From the IMG/VR virus record IMGVR_UViG_3300031746_003562, positions 1-26,522 of that record: DNA of 26,522 bases. One strand, 5' to 3'. A program made the position numbers and the translations under genes. Origin of the DNA: a virus. Positions 3,653 to 20,538 of the stretch are shown here, in pieces; position 1 is the first letter of the stretch, and each line of letters starts with the position of its first letter. The notes beneath the pieces are model-generated. The model had not been told where the DNA came from. It did no database searches and worked only from the letters and a program-made list of their open reading frames with translations.

Positions 3653-3994
3653 TCATACGGCGATCTTCTTTTTGAATCTGCCGAGCACATCGATTTGTCG
3701 CTCTCGATAGTGCTCTTTCAAATGTTGCGAGTGAGTCGTGACAATCAAATTCTCGAGACGGTTATCCCAACACCTGCCATTCTTATGATGCACGTCTTCT
3801 TCGGTTTTCAATTTGCGTCCGAGATGACACTCCATCATGAAACGATGCTCCAAAATATATCCGCGTCGGCCAACCAAAACCTCGACGTACCCATCGTCCC
3901 GAATTTTGTATTTCCGTTTCGGGTGCCGTTGTCGAATTGCGTGCCGCAAAACTTTTAGAAATGACGGCCCCAATTTCGCCGGGCGTTTCCTCAT
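3653..3994 (-). CDS. HNH endonuclease, free-standing homing-type
   Basis: The 113-residue protein carries a basic N-terminus, then DGYVEVLVGRRGYILEHRFM with an EH core. HH at residues 69-70 follows, then KNGRCWDNRLENL and a terminal H-x(2-3)-H. This order fits the HNH_3 type of phage homing nucleases, where the histidines bind a metal and activate water. ATG at 3994 overlaps the upstream TGA (ATGA). A longer frame to 4105 exists but lacks a ribosome site. Its insertion inside the head operon is typical of mobile HNH genes, although it could instead act in packaging. Confidence 0.8.
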   Translation of the reverse strand: MRKRPAKLGPSFLKVLRHAIRQRHPKRKYKIRDDGYVEVLVGRRGYILEHRFMMECHLGRKLKTEEDVHHKNGRCWDNRLENLIVTTHSQHLKEHYRERQIDVLGRFKKKIAV

Positions 3995-4929
3995 AGCGCG
4001 GTTGCACGCTTTCCGTTTCGCCAAACCCAACCAGGAATTCCCCAGTCTCGTTTCCATGGCGACACAACCGCGCGGTCGTTCGGTCGATTGGGCGGGAATG
4101 CCCACTCTTGACCTTGCAATGATTCGGGTATCGCTTCGCCTTTCGGTGTCGCGGGCGGCATGAAAAACATTTCTCCGACGCCCGCGACCTGCCCGTGCAT
4201 TGCGAGTGAATCGATTGCCACTCTATCGTCATACGGGTTCCCGTCCTCGTCGACCATTTCCTCCCACTGCATTTTCATTCCGGGAACTTCACGCGCTGTG
4301 TCTTCAATAGCGTCTCGGTGCGAAGCATTGTATGCCCACGCTGTTTCTGTACGGACTATTCTTTCAGCCTGCCACCACTCGCCCTCGATGGCGGGGAGCA
4401 CACGCCCGATTGCTTGGTCTTGATTCTCTCCCGTGAGCAGTGACATGGCGAGCTCTCGCTCAACCGCCTTCACGGTCTGTGCGCCATGTTTTGCCATGCT
4501 GCTCTGGTGCATGCGAAGCAAAGAGGTCTTTCTTTTGTCGATGATTCCATAGAACCTCGACGCTTCTTCGAGGGGCAATTCAATCGTGGCGCCCGTGAAC
4601 TTCTTCTCGAGTCGCCCAACGTCCTTCAAGAGCCCGCTCACCGCTTCTTTCTGCGCCTCTCGCGTGACCGACCCGAGCTCGGCCGCCATCTTCGCCGATA
4701 GCGTTGCTTGCCCGTCTGTGATTTGAGCGAGTGCGAACCGCATTTGATGCGTGGTGAAAGTGTCCGCGCCGCGACCTAGTTGAGCTCTGAGCTTCGCCTC
4801 TTGCTCTATCGCGGCCTCGTGATACATGCGACTGAGAGGGAATACGCCTCGGCGCATAGAGAGACGGAGGAGTCGTTGCCGATGCTCCTCCATCACTTGC
4901 TGATAGTACTTTTTTTTCGCCGATGCCAC
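3991..4929 (-). CDS. Head morphogenesis protein, SPP1 gp7 / Mu gpF family
   Basis: This 312-residue protein is mainly helical up to about residue 190, then shows RTETAWAYNASHRDAI (193-208), the hallmark region of the SPP1 gp7/Mu F family. It ends in a domain containing MHGQVAGVGEMFFMPP and FPPNRPNDRAVVSPWKRDWG. Members bind portal or DNA and act as minor head proteins, sometimes ejected. The start is GTG at 4929, with GAGGGG four bases upstream. It lies 9 bp after the fibre-like gene, further from the portal than is usual in this family because five or more genes separate them. Confidence 0.85.
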   Translation of the reverse strand: MASAKKKYYQQVMEEHRQRLLRLSMRRGVFPLSRMYHEAAIEQEAKLRAQLGRGADTFTTHQMRFALAQITDGQATLSAKMAAELGSVTREAQKEAVSGLLKDVGRLEKKFTGATIELPLEEASRFYGIIDKRKTSLLRMHQSSMAKHGAQTVKAVERELAMSLLTGENQDQAIGRVLPAIEGEWWQAERIVRTETAWAYNASHRDAIEDTAREVPGMKMQWEEMVDEDGNPYDDRVAIDSLAMHGQVAGVGEMFFMPPATPKGEAIPESLQGQEWAFPPNRPNDRAVVSPWKRDWGIPGWVWRNGKRATAL

Positions 4930-6826: not shown

Positions 6827-7627
6827 TTATGGAAGTGCGCCTATCCTGTTCTCAGCCATCGCTCGTTTTTTGCGCATGCGTTCAACCAATAACGGGTTCA
6901 AATTCCAACAGCGCACGCTGGTTTTTAAATCGCGATTCCATCGTGGGAGTTGATCTTCTCGAAGCCAAAGACGCTCGGACAAATATGTGCCATCTCGATT
7001 TTTAAATCCTCTATTTTTTACTTTATACCAAACCTTCACCCATCCTGCGGGAGCACTACGCTCCGTTACCGCGATGAGCGATTCTTGTTTGCTCGCCCAC
7101 TCCCAGAATTGTGCATGATTGAAATCGCTTTTACACCCGACGCTGTATGTGTCTTTGTACGGCGGGTCGCAGTAGATTAAATCTGCGCTTATACCGGCAG
7201 TTAAATAATCAGAGAACTTGAAAATCACATCTCGAATCTTTGGCGCCAACTTGATTAACGTATTGCGCGCGTACAACGCGAAGTTTTGTTTAGCTGATTT
7301 GTATGTATATCCACACCATGCACTGCCTCTAAAACTACAACCAAATTTTGCAACCGCCGTGCATGGGTCGAGTGGATCATTTTTCTCTCGTAATTGACAC
7401 CGCATTCGCTCTGTCACAAGAGGTGGCTTCCAACCTGTTTGAACTGCCTGTAATAAAATGATCATCGACTGCTCAAGATCTGACCCGTAGCGTATCCATG
7501 ACGGCGGCATCTCTGCAATTACCGATGCCGCCCCGACAAATGGCTCCCAATAACTCCTCGTCGTTTGCGCGGCAAAGAATCTCGCAATCGGTTTTGCCAC
7601 TGTCGCTTTGCCGCCAAGGTACATCAT
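6827..7627 (-). CDS. DNA adenine methyltransferase, D12 (Dam-like) class
   Basis: The 266-residue protein shows the class order: YLGGK (3-7), the SAM-binding EPFVGAAS loop (28-35) in place of FxGxG, and the catalytic DPPY (154-157). The family transfers a methyl group from S-adenosylmethionine to N6 of adenine. No restriction partner is seen, so it is probably an orphan enzyme that protects phage DNA or marks packaging or replication sites. The start overlaps the TGA of the HNH gene (ATGATG; 7627 or 7624). Recognition sequence cannot be read from the protein. Confidence 0.9.
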   Translation of the reverse strand: MMYLGGKATVAKPIARFFAAQTTRSYWEPFVGAASVIAEMPPSWIRYGSDLEQSMIILLQAVQTGWKPPLVTERMRCQLREKNDPLDPCTAVAKFGCSFRGSAWCGYTYKSAKQNFALYARNTLIKLAPKIRDVIFKFSDYLTAGISADLIYCDPPYKDTYSVGCKSDFNHAQFWEWASKQESLIAVTERSAPAGWVKVWYKVKNRGFKNRDGTYLSERLWLREDQLPRWNRDLKTSVRCWNLNPLLVERMRKKRAMAENRIGALP

Positions 7628-8007
7628 TTATCGCCCTCGGGCGTGACCTGCGAAGAGTCGACGCCTTCCTCTCTCGCCTCTTCGTGAACGTTGTCATGAC
7701 AGCTTGCACAGATAGTGACAAGGTTCTCGGGCGTGCTCTTGTGCCCCATCTGGCTGAGCCATTTCGATTTGACGATGCCGCCCTTATGGTGCACGCCGAT
7801 GTTTTCTTTTCCGCCGCAAACCTTGCACGTGTATTTGTCGCGTCGCATCACTCCCAGTACTAGCGACGAGGAGAGCCCGCCTTCGCCGTCCGACTCGAGA
7901 GTCGTTCCCGCTTTGGCTGCTTCTTTGCGAATGCTGGCGAGCGCCTTCTCTTCTTCGGGCGACGTTTTCTTTTTGCTCTTCACATACTGTGCAAGTTCTT
8001 TGCTCAT
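7624..8007 (-). CDS. HNH endonuclease with zinc-binding cysteines
   Basis: This 127-residue protein has a Lys/Glu-rich helical N-terminus, then CKVCGG (61-64), VHHKGG (HH 73-74), an Asn at 95 and ICASCHDNVH (100-108). That is the ββα-metal HNH core framed by a four-cysteine zinc site. Such nucleases often sit near terminase and portal genes and can be needed for DNA packaging. A defensive or mobile role is the alternative. It overlaps the upstream gene by ATGA and the downstream methylase in the same way, so the three are translated together. Confidence 0.9.
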   Translation of the reverse strand: MSKELAQYVKSKKKTSPEEEKALASIRKEAAKAGTTLESDGEGGLSSSLVLGVMRRDKYTCKVCGGKENIGVHHKGGIVKSKWLSQMGHKSTPENLVTICASCHDNVHEEAREEGVDSSQVTPEGDK

Positions 8008-9296: not shown

Positions 9297-11236
9297 GACA
9301 TGTCTCCCGGCGGCGGCTCTTGTAGCTCTGAGGGTCGAATATCAATCGCGTTAATGATCTCACTGGCGGTGCTTTCTGAGAACGACATTGGGAACGCCCC
9401 GGTAATGACGGAGACAGCGGCTTCTCTCGAGAGCAATCCTGATTGAACGGACATGAGAATCTGCAAGAGACTGGCGATCTGCGCGCCGTTGAGAGCGGTC
9501 GATTGAATGTCCTTCTCGATCTCCGCTTCGTGTGTCTCTGGTTTTTGCGTTGACAATTCCTGAGTTCTCATGTTAGGCATTCTGCCTAACATCATGTTCT
9601 CGAGTTCGGCGTCTTTCTCGAACCGCTCCGACTTCAACTTCTTCAACATTCCCTGCGCATCTTCGATATGGAAATACTCGGCGACGAATTTCGTCGCGTG
9701 CTCATCGTCGATAAGCCCACTCATTTTTGCATTGCCCGCTGCACTCGTCGCCGCTGTGACGTCTGTGAGAGTCGGGTCGAAGTACTGTGGCCATTGCAAT
9801 TTGAGAGAGTAATTCGGACCGGCACCGAGCACGCGCGGCTTCTGAATCGAGACACCGTTCTCGTTTTTCGTCACGCTCGGCGGGAGATTGATGGTCTGTT
9901 TTAGGACCGACCCGTCCTCTTGCACGCTCCCCGCGCCGAGTTTCTGAATCGCTTTGATCATGTCGAGGATGAGAGGCTTCACGCCACGTTCTCCGTACTG
10001 CTCACGCATGACGTCGGCCTTGGCGAGCATGCTCGAGAACGCTCTCTCGATCTCTGTCGCCGTGCGCTGTGACTGCTCGGGGTGCTCTAGCACGCACTGT
10101 GCGACCTCGAGAGCGTGCTTGCGAAGCATTTCGATCTTGCTCATTGCGATCTCGATGCCCTGCCCTGTGATCTCGAGGTACTTCGCATCGCCGTTCGGAA
10201 TGTGAAGCGCGTTATCGCTTCCCTTGATGATCTCGTCCATGCGAGCGACCGAGGTAATCACGAGGGTAGGATCGCAATTCGCCTGCGTGCCTTTTAATCC
10301 GCTCGACATGAGCGCATCGATTGCCTCGATGAGCGGATAGACGCCCTGACAATCGGGGTCGCCATCGATATCGTCTTGCACGGGCAAGTTCTGCACCCAT
10401 CGCACCGGGCAGAAACCGAAACCGTGAACGACTTCTTTTCGCGCGAGGTTCTCCCAATCGGGCTCCTCGCCATCGTCGACGGGCACGGGCTCCCAGAGCA
10501 CGTCCGATGTTTTCGTGATGACGCGCCGATACCAGAAATCAATTGGCTGCCTGATTCCCGTTCTCGGGTCGAGAATCTCTTTCGTGAACATGTGTCGCTT
10601 CTCGATCGATTTGAGCACGAGCTCGAGCTCGTCTTCAAAGTCCGGGATCATCCAACGCGGGTCGTGAATCTCGATTCGAGGAAGCCCATCGATAAATTGA
10701 AACCCGATGACGACCGTCCCCATCGCGCCCCCGTACTCGCGGGCGAGCATCATGAGCGGCCAAAGGCGCGCCTCTTCGACCAATGCGCCGACGAAGTCCT
10801 CGGTGAGCGGATCGCCCTCGATACGAATTTGAGGGTGATGACGCTCTGAGAAAAGCAATCCCGAGAATCTATCGACGATGACTTTTGGGAGAGCGTAGGG
10901 CGCGGTTGGCTTTCTGAACTTGTTCGGCATCGCGCTTGTCGACATCGATTGAAAGCCGGGCGGGAGAAATCCTTTTGTCGCTATCGCCTCGATCTCGATC
11001 GGGTCGATGACCTCGTTGCCGTTCCAGTCGCATTTCCTCGTATCGTAATGCTGGCATCGATACCAGGCCCACAACCAATTCAATTCTTGCTGACGCGGCG
11101 TCAGACCGAGTCTCGCGATTCTCTGATTGGTGACTGCCTGCGCGGCGCGATCGCCGAGTCGCCCGCCGAGTTTTTGCGCGATCGCTCCCACTAGTCTGCT
11201 CACTCGGCCCATATCGACGCGGGTTGCGCTGCTCAT
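9293..11236 (-). CDS. Portal protein
   Basis: At 647 residues this fits the SPP1 gp6-like portal class and stands after the terminase genes. Features include a helical N-terminus, a middle domain with IHDPRWMIPDFEDELELVLKS and WYRRVITKTSDVLWEPV, a VHGFGFCPVRWVQNLP segment, and long helices near residues 350-410. The C-terminus is acidic and Gln-rich. The portal forms the ring at one head vertex through which terminase drives DNA. The ATG overlaps the deformylase TGA. The gene contains a perfect 10-bp inverted repeat near its 3' end. Confidence 0.9.
   Translation of the reverse strand: MSSATRVDMGRVSRLVGAIAQKLGGRLGDRAAQAVTNQRIARLGLTPRQQELNWLWAWYRCQHYDTRKCDWNGNEVIDPIEIEAIATKGFLPPGFQSMSTSAMPNKFRKPTAPYALPKVIVDRFSGLLFSERHHPQIRIEGDPLTEDFVGALVEEARLWPLMMLAREYGGAMGTVVIGFQFIDGLPRIEIHDPRWMIPDFEDELELVLKSIEKRHMFTKEILDPRTGIRQPIDFWYRRVITKTSDVLWEPVPVDDGEEPDWENLARKEVVHGFGFCPVRWVQNLPVQDDIDGDPDCQGVYPLIEAIDALMSSGLKGTQANCDPTLVITSVARMDEIIKGSDNALHIPNGDAKYLEITGQGIEIAMSKIEMLRKHALEVAQCVLEHPEQSQRTATEIERAFSSMLAKADVMREQYGERGVKPLILDMIKAIQKLGAGSVQEDGSVLKQTINLPPSVTKNENGVSIQKPRVLGAGPNYSLKLQWPQYFDPTLTDVTAATSAAGNAKMSGLIDDEHATKFVAEYFHIEDAQGMLKKLKSERFEKDAELENMMLGRMPNMRTQELSTQKPETHEAEIEKDIQSTALNGAQIASLLQILMSVQSGLLSREAAVSVITGAFPMSFSESTASEIINAIDIRPSELQEPPPGDMS
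9570..9592 (-). repeat. Perfect 10-bp inverted repeat inside the portal gene
   Basis: ATGTTAGGCA (9570-9579) and TGCCTAACAT (9583-9592) form a stem with a 3-nt loop within codons for MLGRMPNM. There is no T tract. It could be an mRNA stability element or a protein-binding site, or arise from codon constraint. Confidence 0.4.
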
Positions 11237-11817
11237 GTCGGTTGCCTTTCTGTGGGCACTCGATACCGCAGGCCCTTGATTTTCAATTTCGCGAGTTTGA
11301 CTCGAATGAGATCGCGTTTGAGTTGCGATTCGTAGTCCGTGAGCACGGTGCCTGAGAGATGATCCATTTCGTGCTGGATCGAGATCGCCAACGCCCCATC
11401 GCCCCCGATCTCAATTGCGTGACCGTCTAGACCAACGCCGGATAACGCTACAACGCTCGCCCTTTTGATTTTTACGGCGTGCTTGGGGAAAGATAAGCAC
11501 CGCTCCTCTGAAATCAACTGAGCCCCGTTTAGGAGCTTGAGCGAGGGGTTGACGATTGGAATGATTTCCTCGACGTCCGCCTTGCCTTCTGGCTGGCTGT
11601 GCTTGACTCGGATCGCGATGACGTTCACGAGCTCGCCGAATTGCGGCGCCGACAATCCCGAGCCGCCGAAACAAGCGAGCGTCTCGACGAGATCGGCCAT
11701 GAGCGCGCGCAACCAGCAAACGTTTCCCTTGCGCAATAGGTCGAGGTGAATCTCGTCGACGGGCTCGCACCTCGACTCGAGTTTAGTCGTCGGCCAAATG
11801 AGCACGGGTCGAATCAT
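11233..11817 (-). CDS. def: Peptide deformylase
   Basis: All three deformylase motifs are present in the 194-residue product: GLSAPQ (54-59), ERCLS (105-109, metal ligand Cys107) and QHEMDH (148-153, ligands His149 and His153 with catalytic Glu150). The enzyme removes formyl groups from the N-terminal methionine of new proteins. Phage-encoded deformylases are known, for example in marine phages, but usually lie among auxiliary metabolic genes. Here the gene overlaps its neighbours by ATGA on both sides, between a zinc-ribbon protein and the portal. It would therefore be made with the head proteins. Confidence 0.92.
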   Translation of the reverse strand: MIRPVLIWPTTKLESRCEPVDEIHLDLLRKGNVCWLRALMADLVETLACFGGSGLSAPQFGELVNVIAIRVKHSQPEGKADVEEIIPIVNPSLKLLNGAQLISEERCLSFPKHAVKIKRASVVALSGVGLDGHAIEIGGDGALAISIQHEMDHLSGTVLTDYESQLKRDLIRVKLAKLKIKGLRYRVPTERQPT

Positions 11818-16762: not shown

Positions 16763-17290
16763 TCAAGGCTCGAAGCCCGGTTTGTAGTTTGTAATCTCCC
16801 TCTCTAACTCTTTCGCGACACGCTCTCTGATAATGCAATCGTCAGCGTGATTGGCGACCGCGGGCACTACTTCGAGCACTCCTTTGATCATCTTGATGGC
16901 AGTGATAATCGATTCGGCATCATCGTCGCGGTAATCTTTATCCAATGTCACTACCAAACCTTTATATTTGTCGGTCATGTTTTCTTCCTTTATCCTCTCA
17001 AGCTTTTCCCCAAGCCACGCAGCGTATTTCATGTTTTCTTCCTTTATCCTCTCAAGCTTTTCCCCAAGCCACGCAGCGTATTTGATGTCATCGGCATGAC
17101 AACGCGCGCAAACATCTTCGCTGTAGAATTCGACTTGGCCTTTATGATTATCGCATCCGTGGTACCTGCACTTCGTGTTGTCAATTTTAGTTATCCGAAA
17201 TGGCCCAAGCTTTTCCTCAAGCCACGCAGCGTATTGATCGCGATCTTCTTCTGGATCATCTTGATTGATCCAATCGGCCATTTCACCCAT
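16763..17290 (-). CDS. Repeat-containing hypothetical protein, probably a gene fusion
   Basis: The 175-residue frame has three parts. First comes a YAAWLEEKLG segment with a Cys/His cluster (CRYHGCDNH, CARCHAD). Then two perfect copies of KYAAWLGEKLERIKEENM follow, encoded by a 54-bp tandem repeat. Last is MTDKYKGLVVTLDKDYRDDD and a helical domain (IITAIKMIKGVLEVVPAVAN). The last part resembles a free-standing phage protein of about 70 residues. An internal ATG at 16978 has its own AGGAAG site, so 71 residues may also be made alone. The 54-bp duplication seems to have joined two genes in frame. Confidence 0.6.
   Translation of the reverse strand: MGEMADWINQDDPEEDRDQYAAWLEEKLGPFRITKIDNTKCRYHGCDNHKGQVEFYSEDVCARCHADDIKYAAWLGEKLERIKEENMKYAAWLGEKLERIKEENMTDKYKGLVVTLDKDYRDDDAESIITAIKMIKGVLEVVPAVANHADDCIIRERVAKELEREITNYKPGFEP
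16977..17084 (-). repeat. 54-bp tandem repeat, two copies
   Basis: Copies at 16977-17030 and 17031-17084 differ at one base. A diverged partial third copy (AAGCTTTTCC-CAAGCCACGCAGCGTATT type) lies at about 17209-17241. Each unit encodes a YAAWLGEKLERIKEENM unit and carries the AGGAAG ribosome site of the downstream frame. Confidence 0.9.
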
Positions 17291-18367: not shown

Positions 18368-18681
18368 GGTTCTCCCTTTACCTTCATCGTCGACTTGTAC
18401 GCCCTCTTCCTTCTCAGCAAATGCCCACGCACGGCTTCCTTTTCCGTCGCGTAGCGCACGCATTCGCCATCATCCGGTCCGCCAAAAACCATCGTCTCAA
18501 AAATAAGTGGCGCACCTTTGTCATTCTGACCGTGACTACTTCCAAGCCAAACGGTCGACACACGAATCTTGCCGCCCGTCAAACCAATTACACGGTAAGT
18601 GTTATCGTTCAACAACTCGATCCACTTCTCAAAACTGATTGACTCTCCATGTTTGTCGCGCCAGTCGATTTCGGTTTTCAT
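18364..18681 (-). CDS. Conserved phage hypothetical protein (VSTVWLG type)
   Basis: ATG 18681 overlaps the upstream TGA and has AAGGAG 8 nt before it. The 105-residue protein has the pattern IDWRDKHGESISFEKWIELL, VSTVWLGSSHGQN, PLIFETMVFGGPDDGECVRY and ATEKEAVRGH, which recurs in small proteins of many phages with no known role. It is likely a single compact alpha/beta domain. It forms a translationally coupled trio with the lipoprotein gene before it and the small zinc protein after it. Confidence 0.65.
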   Translation of the reverse strand: MKTEIDWRDKHGESISFEKWIELLNDNTYRVIGLTGGKIRVSTVWLGSSHGQNDKGAPLIFETMVFGGPDDGECVRYATEKEAVRGHLLRRKRAYKSTMKVKGEP

Positions 18682-18950
18682 CGTCCGCACTCCTTCAGGC
18701 ACTTGTAAAAATAACAGGACGCTTCGGCGTTCTTGATCCCGATGAGTCGCCTCTCAATATCGGGCGCTTCGCCGGCGTCATCTATCCAAACATTTCCGTT
18801 CGCCGCCTTCGCCACCTGCTCGTCTTGCTCTATGACGAGACCTCCATCGCTCGAGATCTTGCACTCAAAACAGAGCGCGTCCTCGCGGCATATGACCGCC
18901 TCGATTCCACAGCCCGTGAATATGAGCATCGCCAACGCTAGGCTTTTCAT
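18678..18950 (-). CDS. Small predicted lipoprotein, cysteine-rich
   Basis: The 90-residue product starts MKSLALAMLIFTGCGIEAVI, a short signal peptide ending in a lipobox-like FTGC with Cys14 as the acylation site. Five further cysteines (CREDALCFEC, CYFYKC and a final C) may form disulfides outside the cell membrane. Phage lipoproteins include superinfection-exclusion factors and Rz1-type spanins. Neither signature is clear here. It is the first gene after the long gap that holds the CRISPR mini-array, and the gap probably carries its promoter. The ribosome site is modest (GGGGG). Confidence 0.6.
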   Translation of the reverse strand: MKSLALAMLIFTGCGIEAVICREDALCFECKISSDGGLVIEQDEQVAKAANGNVWIDDAGEAPDIERRLIGIKNAEASCYFYKCLKECGR

Positions 18951-19141
18951 GATTGCTACCCCCGAATTGCGTAGTTTTACCTCTAACTATTTTAACAGCA
19001 ACCTGCCGATTTCTAACGATTTTTGTAGGAACCTAAACATTTCAATTGCGTCGCAGCTTGCGTACGATTGCGTTGTTACGTATTCTTGAGTCCTCCGAAT
19101 TGCGTGCCGCTCGATCTTTTCTGAGGAGGTCGGGCGGCATT
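18951..19141 (-). promoter_or_regulatory. Gene-free region with clustered ATTGCGT repeats
   Basis: ATTGCGT (plus strand) occurs at 18966, 19045, 19067 and 19099. Two of these lie in the longer CCGAATTGCGT (18962-18972 and 19095-19105). The minus strand also carries TTGAAA and AT-rich TAAAAT boxes, but at poor spacing. The cluster may be an operator upstream of the lipoprotein gene. The 19096-19110 part also matches 15 nt of the HNH gene at 3933-3947. The rest of the 311-bp gap holds the CRISPR mini-array and a short spacer. Confidence 0.4.
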
Positions 19142-19231
19142 TTCTTTTGCCCCGCGCGTGCGGGGAACATGAAGAAATGCTCGTCGAAATTCTTGAACAC
19201 CCCGGTTCAGCCCCGCGTGTGCGGGGAAACA
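19142..19231 (-). CRISPR. Type I-E-like mini-CRISPR array: two repeats, one spacer
   Basis: Two 29-nt repeats (19142-19170 and 19203-19231) flank one 32-nt spacer (19171-19202), giving the exact 61-nt period of type I-E arrays. Both keep the CCCCGC-N4-GCGGGG stem while the loop varies (GCGT or GTGT). Read on the minus strand, the first repeat ends CTGAACCG, which matches the 8-nt crRNA handle of type I-E. The last repeat is degenerate at its 3' end, as terminal repeats usually are. 20 of 29 repeat positions agree. No cas gene or clear leader is present, so processing would rely on host Cas proteins and transcription on phage readthrough. Confidence 0.8.
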
Positions 19232-19261
19232 AATGAGGGAGCCAGGCGGGGATTTGCGGGT

Positions 19262-19915
19262 TCATGGGTGCTGCCTTTGGCACGGGCCGCTGTTCTTTGG
19301 GTGGCCGCAGACCGAGCAGACACCGGCCAGCCTCACCGCTTCGGCCGTTGCCATCTCGGCCAAGTGACCGCATGACCCCAGATCCCACCGCACCGCGTTT
19401 GGCGGTGCCAGGTAGACGCCGGACTCGTCGAGCCGATAGGTCGGGCACGCATCGTCCGAATCCATTCGCTCGATCTGAAACACGCGACCTTCAATCGGTG
19501 CGCGTTCTCGGTGCTTCAGCAAGACGCGAAACGTCGCGGCGCTCATCTCGTACCAGTACATCGCGTGGCGCTCGACGCACCACACGTTCATGCGAACACG
19601 GCAGGCTGGTGTCACGCCGTTGTGGGATTGGTCCTTCCGGTTGTACGGCACCCACCCGTCGTCCTCGCTCCATATCGCGTCGTACGGGAACGGTTCCCCG
19701 ACGAACACAACACGGGCCTTGTCGCCCATCTCTCCGAGAATCATCTCGTTGGGGCGCCTGATCGCGCCGAGGTGGCTACGGGCCTCGTACGTGGCATCTC
19801 GCATCGTCTTGATTTCCAGGCACAAAAGCTCCGTCTGTCCGGGCACCCGATCGAGCCCCTCGCTCTCTCGCTGGGCGACGCATGCCCGCAGGATGCGTTC
19901 TACGTCCGGTCTCAT
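19262..19915 (-). CDS. Hypothetical protein with C-terminal zinc-knuckle
   Basis: The start at 19915 overlaps the upstream TGA (ATGA) and has GGAGG 5 nt before it. The 217-residue protein runs from MRPDVERILRACVAQRESEG through a Trp/Tyr-rich middle (VWCVERHAMYWYEMSAATFR) to CSVCGHPKNSGPCQ, a likely metal site. Its base composition looks more GC-rich than its neighbours by eye. It lies directly upstream of the CRISPR repeats, so it occupies the place where an array leader would be. Function unknown. A link with the array is unproven. Confidence 0.6.
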   Translation of the reverse strand: MRPDVERILRACVAQRESEGLDRVPGQTELLCLEIKTMRDATYEARSHLGAIRRPNEMILGEMGDKARVVFVGEPFPYDAIWSEDDGWVPYNRKDQSHNGVTPACRVRMNVWCVERHAMYWYEMSAATFRVLLKHRERAPIEGRVFQIERMDSDDACPTYRLDESGVYLAPPNAVRWDLGSCGHLAEMATAEAVRLAGVCSVCGHPKNSGPCQRQHP

Positions 19916-20538
19916 ACAGCCTCCGTACACTCGATGTCGTTCAAAATTTTTCCGCCTCTCACCATCATCGTGGGAGCCCATCCATGCTCGACGAAATTCA
20001 ACGCCGCCTCTCTCGAGTAACCTTGCGTGACGAGATAGTCGACAAACGTTTCCTTCGTCGGAAATACCGGCGAGATGGGCGAGCCTTCGCTTACCGTTTC
20101 CCAGAGCTGATACCCCTCACCCTCGGGCGGTAACTCTTCCTCCCACGCTTCGTACTTTGCTTTGACCGCGGCATCGATGCCTGTACTATCACAGATAGTG
20201 CACCTTCCCCAACCGGGGAGACCTGCTATCTCGAGGAGTTTTTGTTTGAGACTGAACGTCTGTCCCCATTCTAGAAGCACCACTCCTTTGGGCTCGCCCG
20301 ATAACGCGACGAATAACTCATGGAGTTCTTTTGCGCGTGCGTTTCTATTGGCATCCGTGGGGTTGGTCGCCGATATCTGAAACTCTTCCAACCACTTATT
20401 GAACCAGCGGTCGCCCGGCGTTGCGCCTGTGCCGCCACAATGCGCGCATTGCTTCCAGTACGGATTCAGAAAGCCTTGCCACACTTTGCGCAAAGGCCAA
20501 TTGAAATCAAGAGGCACCCGATAGATTTCTCTTCCCAT
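19912..20538 (-). CDS. Conserved hypothetical with DnaJ-like zinc motifs
   Basis: The 208 residues include CAHCGGTG (31-38) and CTICDSTG (113-120), which together resemble the CxxCxGxG zinc repeats of DnaJ. The C-terminal block reads PPEGEGYQLWETVSEGSPIS, PVFPTKETFVDYLVTQGYSR and NFVEHGWAPTMM. I recognise this block from a family of phage and bacterial hypothetical proteins. No J-domain is present, so chaperone activity is not implied. A hairpin and GGGAG precede the ATG. Confidence 0.7.
   Translation of the reverse strand: MGREIYRVPLDFNWPLRKVWQGFLNPYWKQCAHCGGTGATPGDRWFNKWLEEFQISATNPTDANRNARAKELHELFVALSGEPKGVVLLEWGQTFSLKQKLLEIAGLPGWGRCTICDSTGIDAAVKAKYEAWEEELPPEGEGYQLWETVSEGSPISPVFPTKETFVDYLVTQGYSREAALNFVEHGWAPTMMVRGGKILNDIECTEAV

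Follow-up and report, generated by a model that had tools for sequence, protein, structure and literature searches.

Does a pair of GC-rich hairpins in a tailed-phage contig constitute a CRISPR array and, if it does, whose Cas proteins would it use and against which target? The window analysed here (the whole stretch of DNA examined, 26,522 bases in length) is an IMG/VR virus contig with matches to large terminase, portal, head-morphogenesis and tail genes, in agreement with an earlier reading made from the letters alone (the first-pass annotation), which had described a tailed phage. Among the minus-strand open reading frames (ORFs) scanned, those with phage-family matches lie on the strand on which the array is read. 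The array is carried by the virus rather than by a host flank, as the adjoining ORFs also flank it in relatives.

Two repeats and one spacer fill positions 19142–19231 exactly, the interval that the first-pass annotation had assigned to a type I-E-like mini-array (Table 1). Perfect CCCCGC-N4-GCGGGG hairpins begin at 19150 and 19211, exactly 61 nt apart, and their loops differ (GCGT and GTGT on the plus strand); the shared stem, varying loop and 29 + 32-nt geometry of type I-E were therefore correctly read. Outside the perfect hairpins the two repeats are unlike each other, with 3′ ends CTGAACCG in repeat 1 and CAAAAGAA in repeat 2. With independent bases, 0.0024 such hairpins would be expected per window. 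An 18-nt pattern (hairpin plus AA, up to 3 mismatches) has 8 matches in the window compared with 2.6 expected, and none of 100 shuffles reached 8. The observation of a two-repeat, one-spacer array in the window is thus confirmed.

Table 1 Features of the mini-array and its surroundings in the window
Feature	Position	Strand	Description
Repeat 1	19203–19231 (read 19231–19203)	−	Complete 29-nt type I-E-type repeat: hairpin CCCCGC-ACAC-GCGGGG, then 8-nt 5′ handle CTGAACCG
Spacer (guide), 32 nt	19171–19202 (read 19202–19171)	−	Wholly different in sister phages with near-identical right flanks
Repeat 2	19142–19170 (read 19170–19142)	−	Intact hairpin CCCCGC-ACGC-GCGGGG; degenerate 3′ end CAAAAGAA instead of CTGAACCG
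Variable segment	19168–19202	−	Spacer plus first 3 nt of repeat 2; from sister-phage comparison
Predicted mature crRNA, 61 nt	19150–19210	−	8-nt handle, 32-nt spacer and 21-nt 3′ hairpin segment; inferred from E. coli processing
Conserved gene upstream of array, 208 aa	19912–20538	−	Function not assigned; TGA stop of homologue abuts repeat 1 in L108 and L140
239-aa ORF	19262–19981	−	Mostly inside window-specific insert between conserved gene and repeat 1
90-aa ORF downstream of array	18678–18950	−	Without family match

Hairpins of other kinds, such as terminators or other palindromes, could fall 61 nt apart by accident, and a terminator-like hairpin on the plus strand (19104–19140) does adjoin repeat 2. 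Set against this, only about 2e-10 pairs at exactly 61 nt are expected by chance, 26 nt of the repeat are identical to bacterial array repeats, found in genomes that mostly also have Cas6e, and the hairpin pair is kept in four phage variants. We judge an accidental pairing to be exceedingly improbable and consider the non-CRISPR reading refuted for practical purposes.

In a collection of 84,980 bacterial and archaeal species genomes, exact copies of the last 26 nt of repeat 1 were found at 15 loci, belonging to 12 genomes; a 30-nt version of the repeat pattern had no match in the same collection. At least 3 hairpin copies are present in 11 of the 15 loci, where the period is mostly near 61. 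When 10 genome loci were examined, two of them on one contig, 7 had a commonest repeat that matches the phage repeat throughout these 26 nt. The first 3 nt of the repeat vary among the host arrays. One of the 12 genomes is a metagenome-assembled genome (MAG) titled ‘Sigynarchaeota’, whose match, on contig L140, is in fact the phage. Alphaproteobacteria make up most of the remaining 11: four Hyphomicrobium, one Hyphomicrobiaceae, and one each of Rhodospirillales, Rhizobium, Hankyongella, an unspecified alphaproteobacterium, Devosia and Acidobacteriota. Cas6e (PF08798) was matched in 10 of the 12 genomes, or in 9 of 11 once the bin holding L140 is set aside; the nine include a Hankyongella copy interrupted by stops, and the misses are the Hyphomicrobiaceae MAG and Devosia. 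In the family of one Hyphomicrobium MAG (G013), 7 of 103 genomes have the 26-mer, all seven already among the 12. The comparison with host genomes that the first-pass annotation had proposed thus yields exact 26-nt matches in native type I-E arrays, together with Cas6e in most of the non-phage genomes, and the one-spacer, type I-E-like mini-array is genuine.

On the repeat alone, the host would be a Hyphomicrobium-like alphaproteobacterium, an assignment that is unproven. The phage contig L140 was binned in the MAG of the Asgard archaeon Candidatus Sigynarchaeota archaeon SQRJ_79 (about 7.8 Mb), where it is probably mis-binned; as a single 6.4-kb contig in a bin of that size, it does not support an archaeal host. 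The bin has two Cas6e genes, one on a contig with an array of a different repeat. The repeat of its type I-E-type array (L182) differs from that of the phage, so the bin does not identify the host. Twelve spacers of a type I-E-type array in this bin score at best 22/32 against the phage. From 10 genome loci we collected 222 distinct host spacers (230 before collapsing, of which a single MAG contig supplied 158) and scored the 219 of 28–36 nt against the phage stretches. None matches the phage fully: the best scores are 25/36 and 24/32, compared with best values of 22–24 in each of 12 shuffled sets and 22 in a reversed set. The 25/36 score was discounted as a phage match, being one above the best shuffled value and from a 36-nt spacer. 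The same 26-nt repeat also occurs in short arrays with other spacers in two viral contigs (L123, 3707–3732, and L057, 628–653), the examined stretches of which have no broader similarity to the window; the second hairpin of L123 has CACGCGC and a GCA prefix, as does L004, one of the relatives described below.

Three cas families, Cas6e, Cas1 and Cas7e, were sought by six-frame search in six viral records, and no record had a match; four of the records are from this phage group and all six may be fragments. Cas6e, Cas1 and Cas7e were detected in 2, 9 and 2 of 14 control genomes, respectively; in the E. coli control Cas1 was detected and Cas6e and Cas7e were not, so the searches for the latter two may be less sensitive than that for Cas1. 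PADLOC matched no cas model among 20 window proteins, and its matches there were to methyltransferases, weakly to HNH-type proteins and, in two marginal cases, to candidate-defence proteins. The earlier statement that the phage has no cas genes is therefore borne out in this record for Cas1, Cas6e and Cas7e.

Relatives of the phage were found by a terminase search of IMG/VR (L003, 3300032516_002767, and L004, 3300031873_000012), by the repeat pattern (L108, 3300032516_005935, from the same sample as L003) and in the genome collection (L140); they may be under-counted, because the scans may omit records near the window’s own. A right-flank pattern in IMG/VR returned no further variant and none with a single hairpin. 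The same two repeats occupy the same genomic place in all four phage variants, and both hairpins are kept, at a spacing of 61 nt in L003/L108 and in L140 and of 60 nt in L004. Relatives with one hairpin, or without the 61-nt period, had been named in the first-pass annotation as evidence against an array; all four variants have both hairpins, 60–61 nt apart. It had also suggested looking for spacer turnover in related phages, and three different spacers stand at this locus: that of the window (W), one shared by L003, L108 and L140 (L3), and one of 31 nt in L004 (L4).

The spacers differ completely beside a flank that barely differs. Counted from the conserved part of repeat 2, the right flank of the window is identical to that of L003 at 300 of 300 positions and to that of L004 at 298 of 300, and over longer stretches the identity is 98.6% (501 nt) and 97.4% (1052 nt), respectively. 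The spacers agree at 8/35 (W–L3), 8/34 (W–L4) and 6/34 (L3–L4) positions, and 802, 713 and 46 of 1000 shuffles, respectively, aligned as well as the real sequences. The right flank of L140 is more divergent (295/302 compared with L003), yet L140 carries spacer L3, so the histories of spacer and flank differ. Across five aligned sequences from the four variants, repeat 1 is the same at each of its 29 columns, unlike the sequence to either side, with L003, which starts at the first base of repeat 1, uninformative on the left. The hairpin of repeat 2 and the next 45 nt are likewise identical in all five. The first 3 nt of repeat 2 change with the spacer (ATG in the window, GTA and GCA in the sisters), and downstream of this variable segment the sequences are alike from TTCCCCGC onward.

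The end of L108 and the start of L003, two contigs from one metagenome, share an exact overlap of 127 nt that covers the array. A contig start at repeat 1 is how de Bruijn assemblers behave at branching paths, and other array variants therefore probably coexist in that sample. We also compared 84 short arrays of 2–3 hairpins, taken from the IMG/VR hairpin pairs listed and from genome loci, with this phage group included and five duplicate loci excluded. In at least 8 other groups whose flanks both reach 92% identity, the spacer that the members share is unchanged or almost so, several of these groups being possible duplicate contigs. One further pair (L043 and L067) differs between its hairpins and was set aside: its flanks are 77–82% identical and its hairpins are without type I-E repeat features. 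Two related viral contigs, L005 and L081, have one and two spacers, respectively, between perfect hairpins, with one spacer nearly identical in both, a difference that could represent spacer gain or loss.

These patterns bear on whether the locus is a relic, that is, a fragment of a host array caught by recombination and now non-functional. The degenerate second repeat, the lack of a leader and of a promoter match, and the failure to find targets would all suit a relic. In a decaying array, however, the repeats would be expected to degrade while the spacer is kept, whereas here repeat 1 is invariant over 29 nt, each of the 4 variants has two perfect hairpins and the spacer has been replaced as a whole; we give this explanation little credence.

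We consider it probable that the locus is a virus-borne, cas-less mini-CRISPR array of subtype I-E type, whose CRISPR RNA (crRNA) borrows the host Cascade against a rival element, and we infer its transcription, processing, use of host Cascade and competitive role as follows. In E. coli type I-E systems, Cas6e cuts 3′ of each hairpin, and an 8-nt handle, the spacer and a 21-nt hairpin segment remain. A minus-strand transcript of the phage array would be cut in the same way by the host Cas6e and would yield a single crRNA of 61 nt, in which a 32-nt guide stands between a 5′ handle and a 3′ hairpin that are both intact. Repeat 1 would provide the cut and the handle, and repeat 2 only its hairpin, so the degenerate 3′ end of repeat 2 would cost nothing. 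Loaded into host Cascade, this crRNA would direct Cas3 to DNA that matches the guide, most likely that of another mobile element competing for the cell.

The same components could serve in another way. RNA anti-CRISPRs (Racrs) are repeat-like RNAs that titrate host Cas proteins and block immunity, with the sequence of the spacer irrelevant. A phage-borne type I-E-type repeat without cas genes is what Racr loci have, inhibition was reported for tested candidates, subtype I-E among them, in the passages cited of PMC10651486, and no target was found for the spacers in IMG/VR, INPHARED, PLSDB, 385 genomes or the collected loci. Those passages describe Racrs as solitary repeat units, whereas this locus has two hairpins 60–61 nt apart in four variants, and the right-flank pattern in IMG/VR found no single-hairpin variant. 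They also attribute the RacrIF1 subcomplex without Cas5f and Cas8f to an RNA without a 5′ handle (PMC10651486), whereas the handle CTGAACCG is intact and invariant here and is followed by a guide-length segment bounded by the second hairpin. A neutral spacer would moreover be expected to drift, rather than be replaced entirely beside a flank identical at 300/300 positions. The conserved parts are those that a crRNA needs and the varying part is the guide, which argues for a guide RNA used with host Cascade and not for a Racr of the RacrIF1 type; a Racr is, in our estimation, unlikely.

Whichever element the guide is aimed at, it was not found in the sequences searched. For none of the three spacers was a protospacer identified in IMG/VR, INPHARED, PLSDB, the collected loci or 385 genomes from G013’s class. 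The IMG/VR patterns used 19–21 fixed bases, with any base allowed at about every sixth position. For L3 and L4 they matched solely the arrays themselves; for W, two candidates with a common matching stretch (L124 and L125) match the 19 fixed bases plus one other base but no further, and were judged to be chance. In INPHARED, W matched 254 records, and the 20 listed, all 87.5% identical over query positions 3–33 with E = 1, were also judged to be chance. These 20 fall mostly in SbcD-like or endonuclease genes of Escherichia and Shigella phages, which we take to be T4-type. L3 had no match in INPHARED and L4 had one exact match of 17 nt (E = 4). In PLSDB, W matched 50 records (best E = 1), L3 matched 6 (E = 4) and L4 none. 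In the collected loci, the best scores (W 22/32, L3 21/32, L4 21/31) equal those of shuffles (20–22). A 15/16 match of W in the phage’s own neighbouring gene (19984–19999) extends to 20/32 in L140 and was dismissed as chance. According to the portion of a review cited here, 67% of viral mini-array spacers have a potential target (PMC8616872). Of the first-pass proposal that the array acts in superinfection exclusion, the genuine cas-less type I-E array and the spacer turnover stand, whereas the databases searched gave no protospacer for any of the three spacers; the role is plausible but unproven.

A guide aimed not at competing viruses but at the host itself, whether its chromosome or a defence or satellite element resident in it, would use identical machinery, and some larger orphan viral arrays have spacers that match host genes, as stated in the cited part of PMC8616872. 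We regard this as improbable: with up to 3 mismatches allowed, each of the three spacers had 0 matches in the 385 genomes of G013’s class, a set that may not include the host.

The preferred reading, a crRNA working with host Cascade, calls for a transcript. A scan for sigma-70-like promoters found 0, compared with 0.7 expected, and transcription could come by read-through from upstream genes. The minimum-energy fold of the unprocessed array region pairs the repeats with each other rather than forming two local hairpins, with a stability that is not unusual (z = −1.24); the hairpin does form when either repeat is folded by itself, and in all three predicted mature crRNAs. We found no host-like leader: the 120 nt upstream of repeat 1 in the window, L004 and L140 are unlike those of 9 genome loci (longest common word, 9 nt), taken as the 120 nt before the first matched repeat and hence not in all 9 cases true leaders. 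Four of the nine loci (L133, L134, L143 and L145) have in common a CTTTGACAT stretch that is likely to be the host leader. The leader-type CTTTGACA stretch of these four is absent from the 300 nt upstream of the array in the window, L004, L140 and L108. A host-like leader is not required for interference.

How, then, is the spacer exchanged? When Cas1–Cas2 insert a spacer, the repeat nearest the leader is duplicated and the previous spacer stays in the array. Two differing, fixed repeats, a lone spacer that has been replaced and 3 changed nucleotides in repeat 2 fit recombination better, and the exchange has probably occurred by recombination at the hairpins rather than by addition at a leader. 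A crossover in the repeat-2 hairpin would replace the spacer; the donor could be a host array, in which the same 3 nt vary, or another virus. More tentatively, and with somewhat less than even confidence, we suggest that the locus is a leaderless cassette with a single guide slot, in which fixed, non-identical repeats serve as the anchor and the guide is swapped by hairpin recombination instead of by Cas1–Cas2 at a leader.

Viral mini-arrays as such are established. The cited parts of PMC8616872, PMC11656645, PMC7099407 and PMC13232261 describe examples without cas genes in which one spacer is flanked by a complete repeat and a truncated one, both of host type, so the anatomy of the array in the window fits a known kind; viruses of Bathyarchaeia also carry mini-arrays (PMC10848311, in the part cited). 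The closest parallel is with the mini-arrays of the archaeal Sulfolobales viruses SPV1 and SPV2 (Medvedeva et al. 2019, PMC6858448), which, in the sections cited, have 1–2 spacers, host-type repeats and no cas genes, host-like leaders, and spacer turnover at a fixed position, with different spacers at an equal genomic position in close relatives. The present array differs in belonging to a bacterial tailed phage, in its subtype I-E-type repeat, single spacer and lack of a host-like leader, in its two non-identical repeats and in having no target in the databases searched. Mini-arrays of bacterial viruses and proviruses (Faure et al. 2019, as relayed in the cited parts of PMC8616872 and PMC11656645) mostly have targets in related viruses, with putative promoters for most; neither was found here. 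As in Racrs (Camara-Wilpert et al. 2023, PMC10651486, in the passages cited), a phage carries a copy of a repeat of host type but no cas genes; the paired hairpins, intact 5′ handle and variable guide set the present locus apart.

The new element is the exchange of the spacer without a leader. In the literature found, turnover at a fixed position had been described for archaeal viruses, and our literature search saw no report of this phage group, which does not prove that there is none. The locus provides a compact natural case in a bacterial tailed phage, in which the guide is wholly different between close relatives while the repeats and right flank are unchanged or nearly so, perhaps a guide exchange directed against rival genetic elements. 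Two questions become testable with it: whether phages of this kind turn the type I-E Cascade of a host on their rivals, and how a leaderless one-spacer array changes its guide.

The TGA stops that abut repeat 1 in L108 and L140 (Table 1) were read by eye from the sequences. Between the conserved upstream gene and repeat 1, extra sequence amounts to about 225 nt in L004 and about 690 nt in the window, and there is none in L108 and L140. The stretch in the window includes most of the 239-aa ORF, which lies on one side of the array, with the 90-aa ORF on the other. The 239-aa ORF is missing at the corresponding place in L004, L108 and L140, and had no match in PHROGs, Pfam, NCBIfam or PADLOC. Immediately upstream of the L004 array, two T-arm-like segments were seen by eye (4296–4372 of that contig); the adjoining tRNA-Sec match is below threshold (20.7 bits compared with the Rfam cut-off of 47). 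An Rfam scan of window positions 18500–20500 gave no match, and ARAGORN, applied to the window and to four loci, predicted no tRNA.

Several smaller features were noted. The terminator-like hairpin that adjoins repeat 2 has 17 pairs and a T-rich tail and opposes the matched phage genes. On the minus strand, a 134-nt stretch immediately downstream of the array has three copies of ACGCAATT (18972–19105; at 19105, 19051 and 18972), half of the six minus-strand copies in the window; the sequence is possibly a regulatory or replication motif. A unit of about 54–60 nt stands in two tandem copies at 16975–17088, within a 175-aa ORF (16763–17290), and encodes a repeated KYAAWLGEKLERIKEENM peptide. Elsewhere in the window, phage-borne genes encode a peptide deformylase (11233–11817), a D12-class DNA methyltransferase (6827–7627) and two HNH endonucleases (3653–4105 and 7624–8007).
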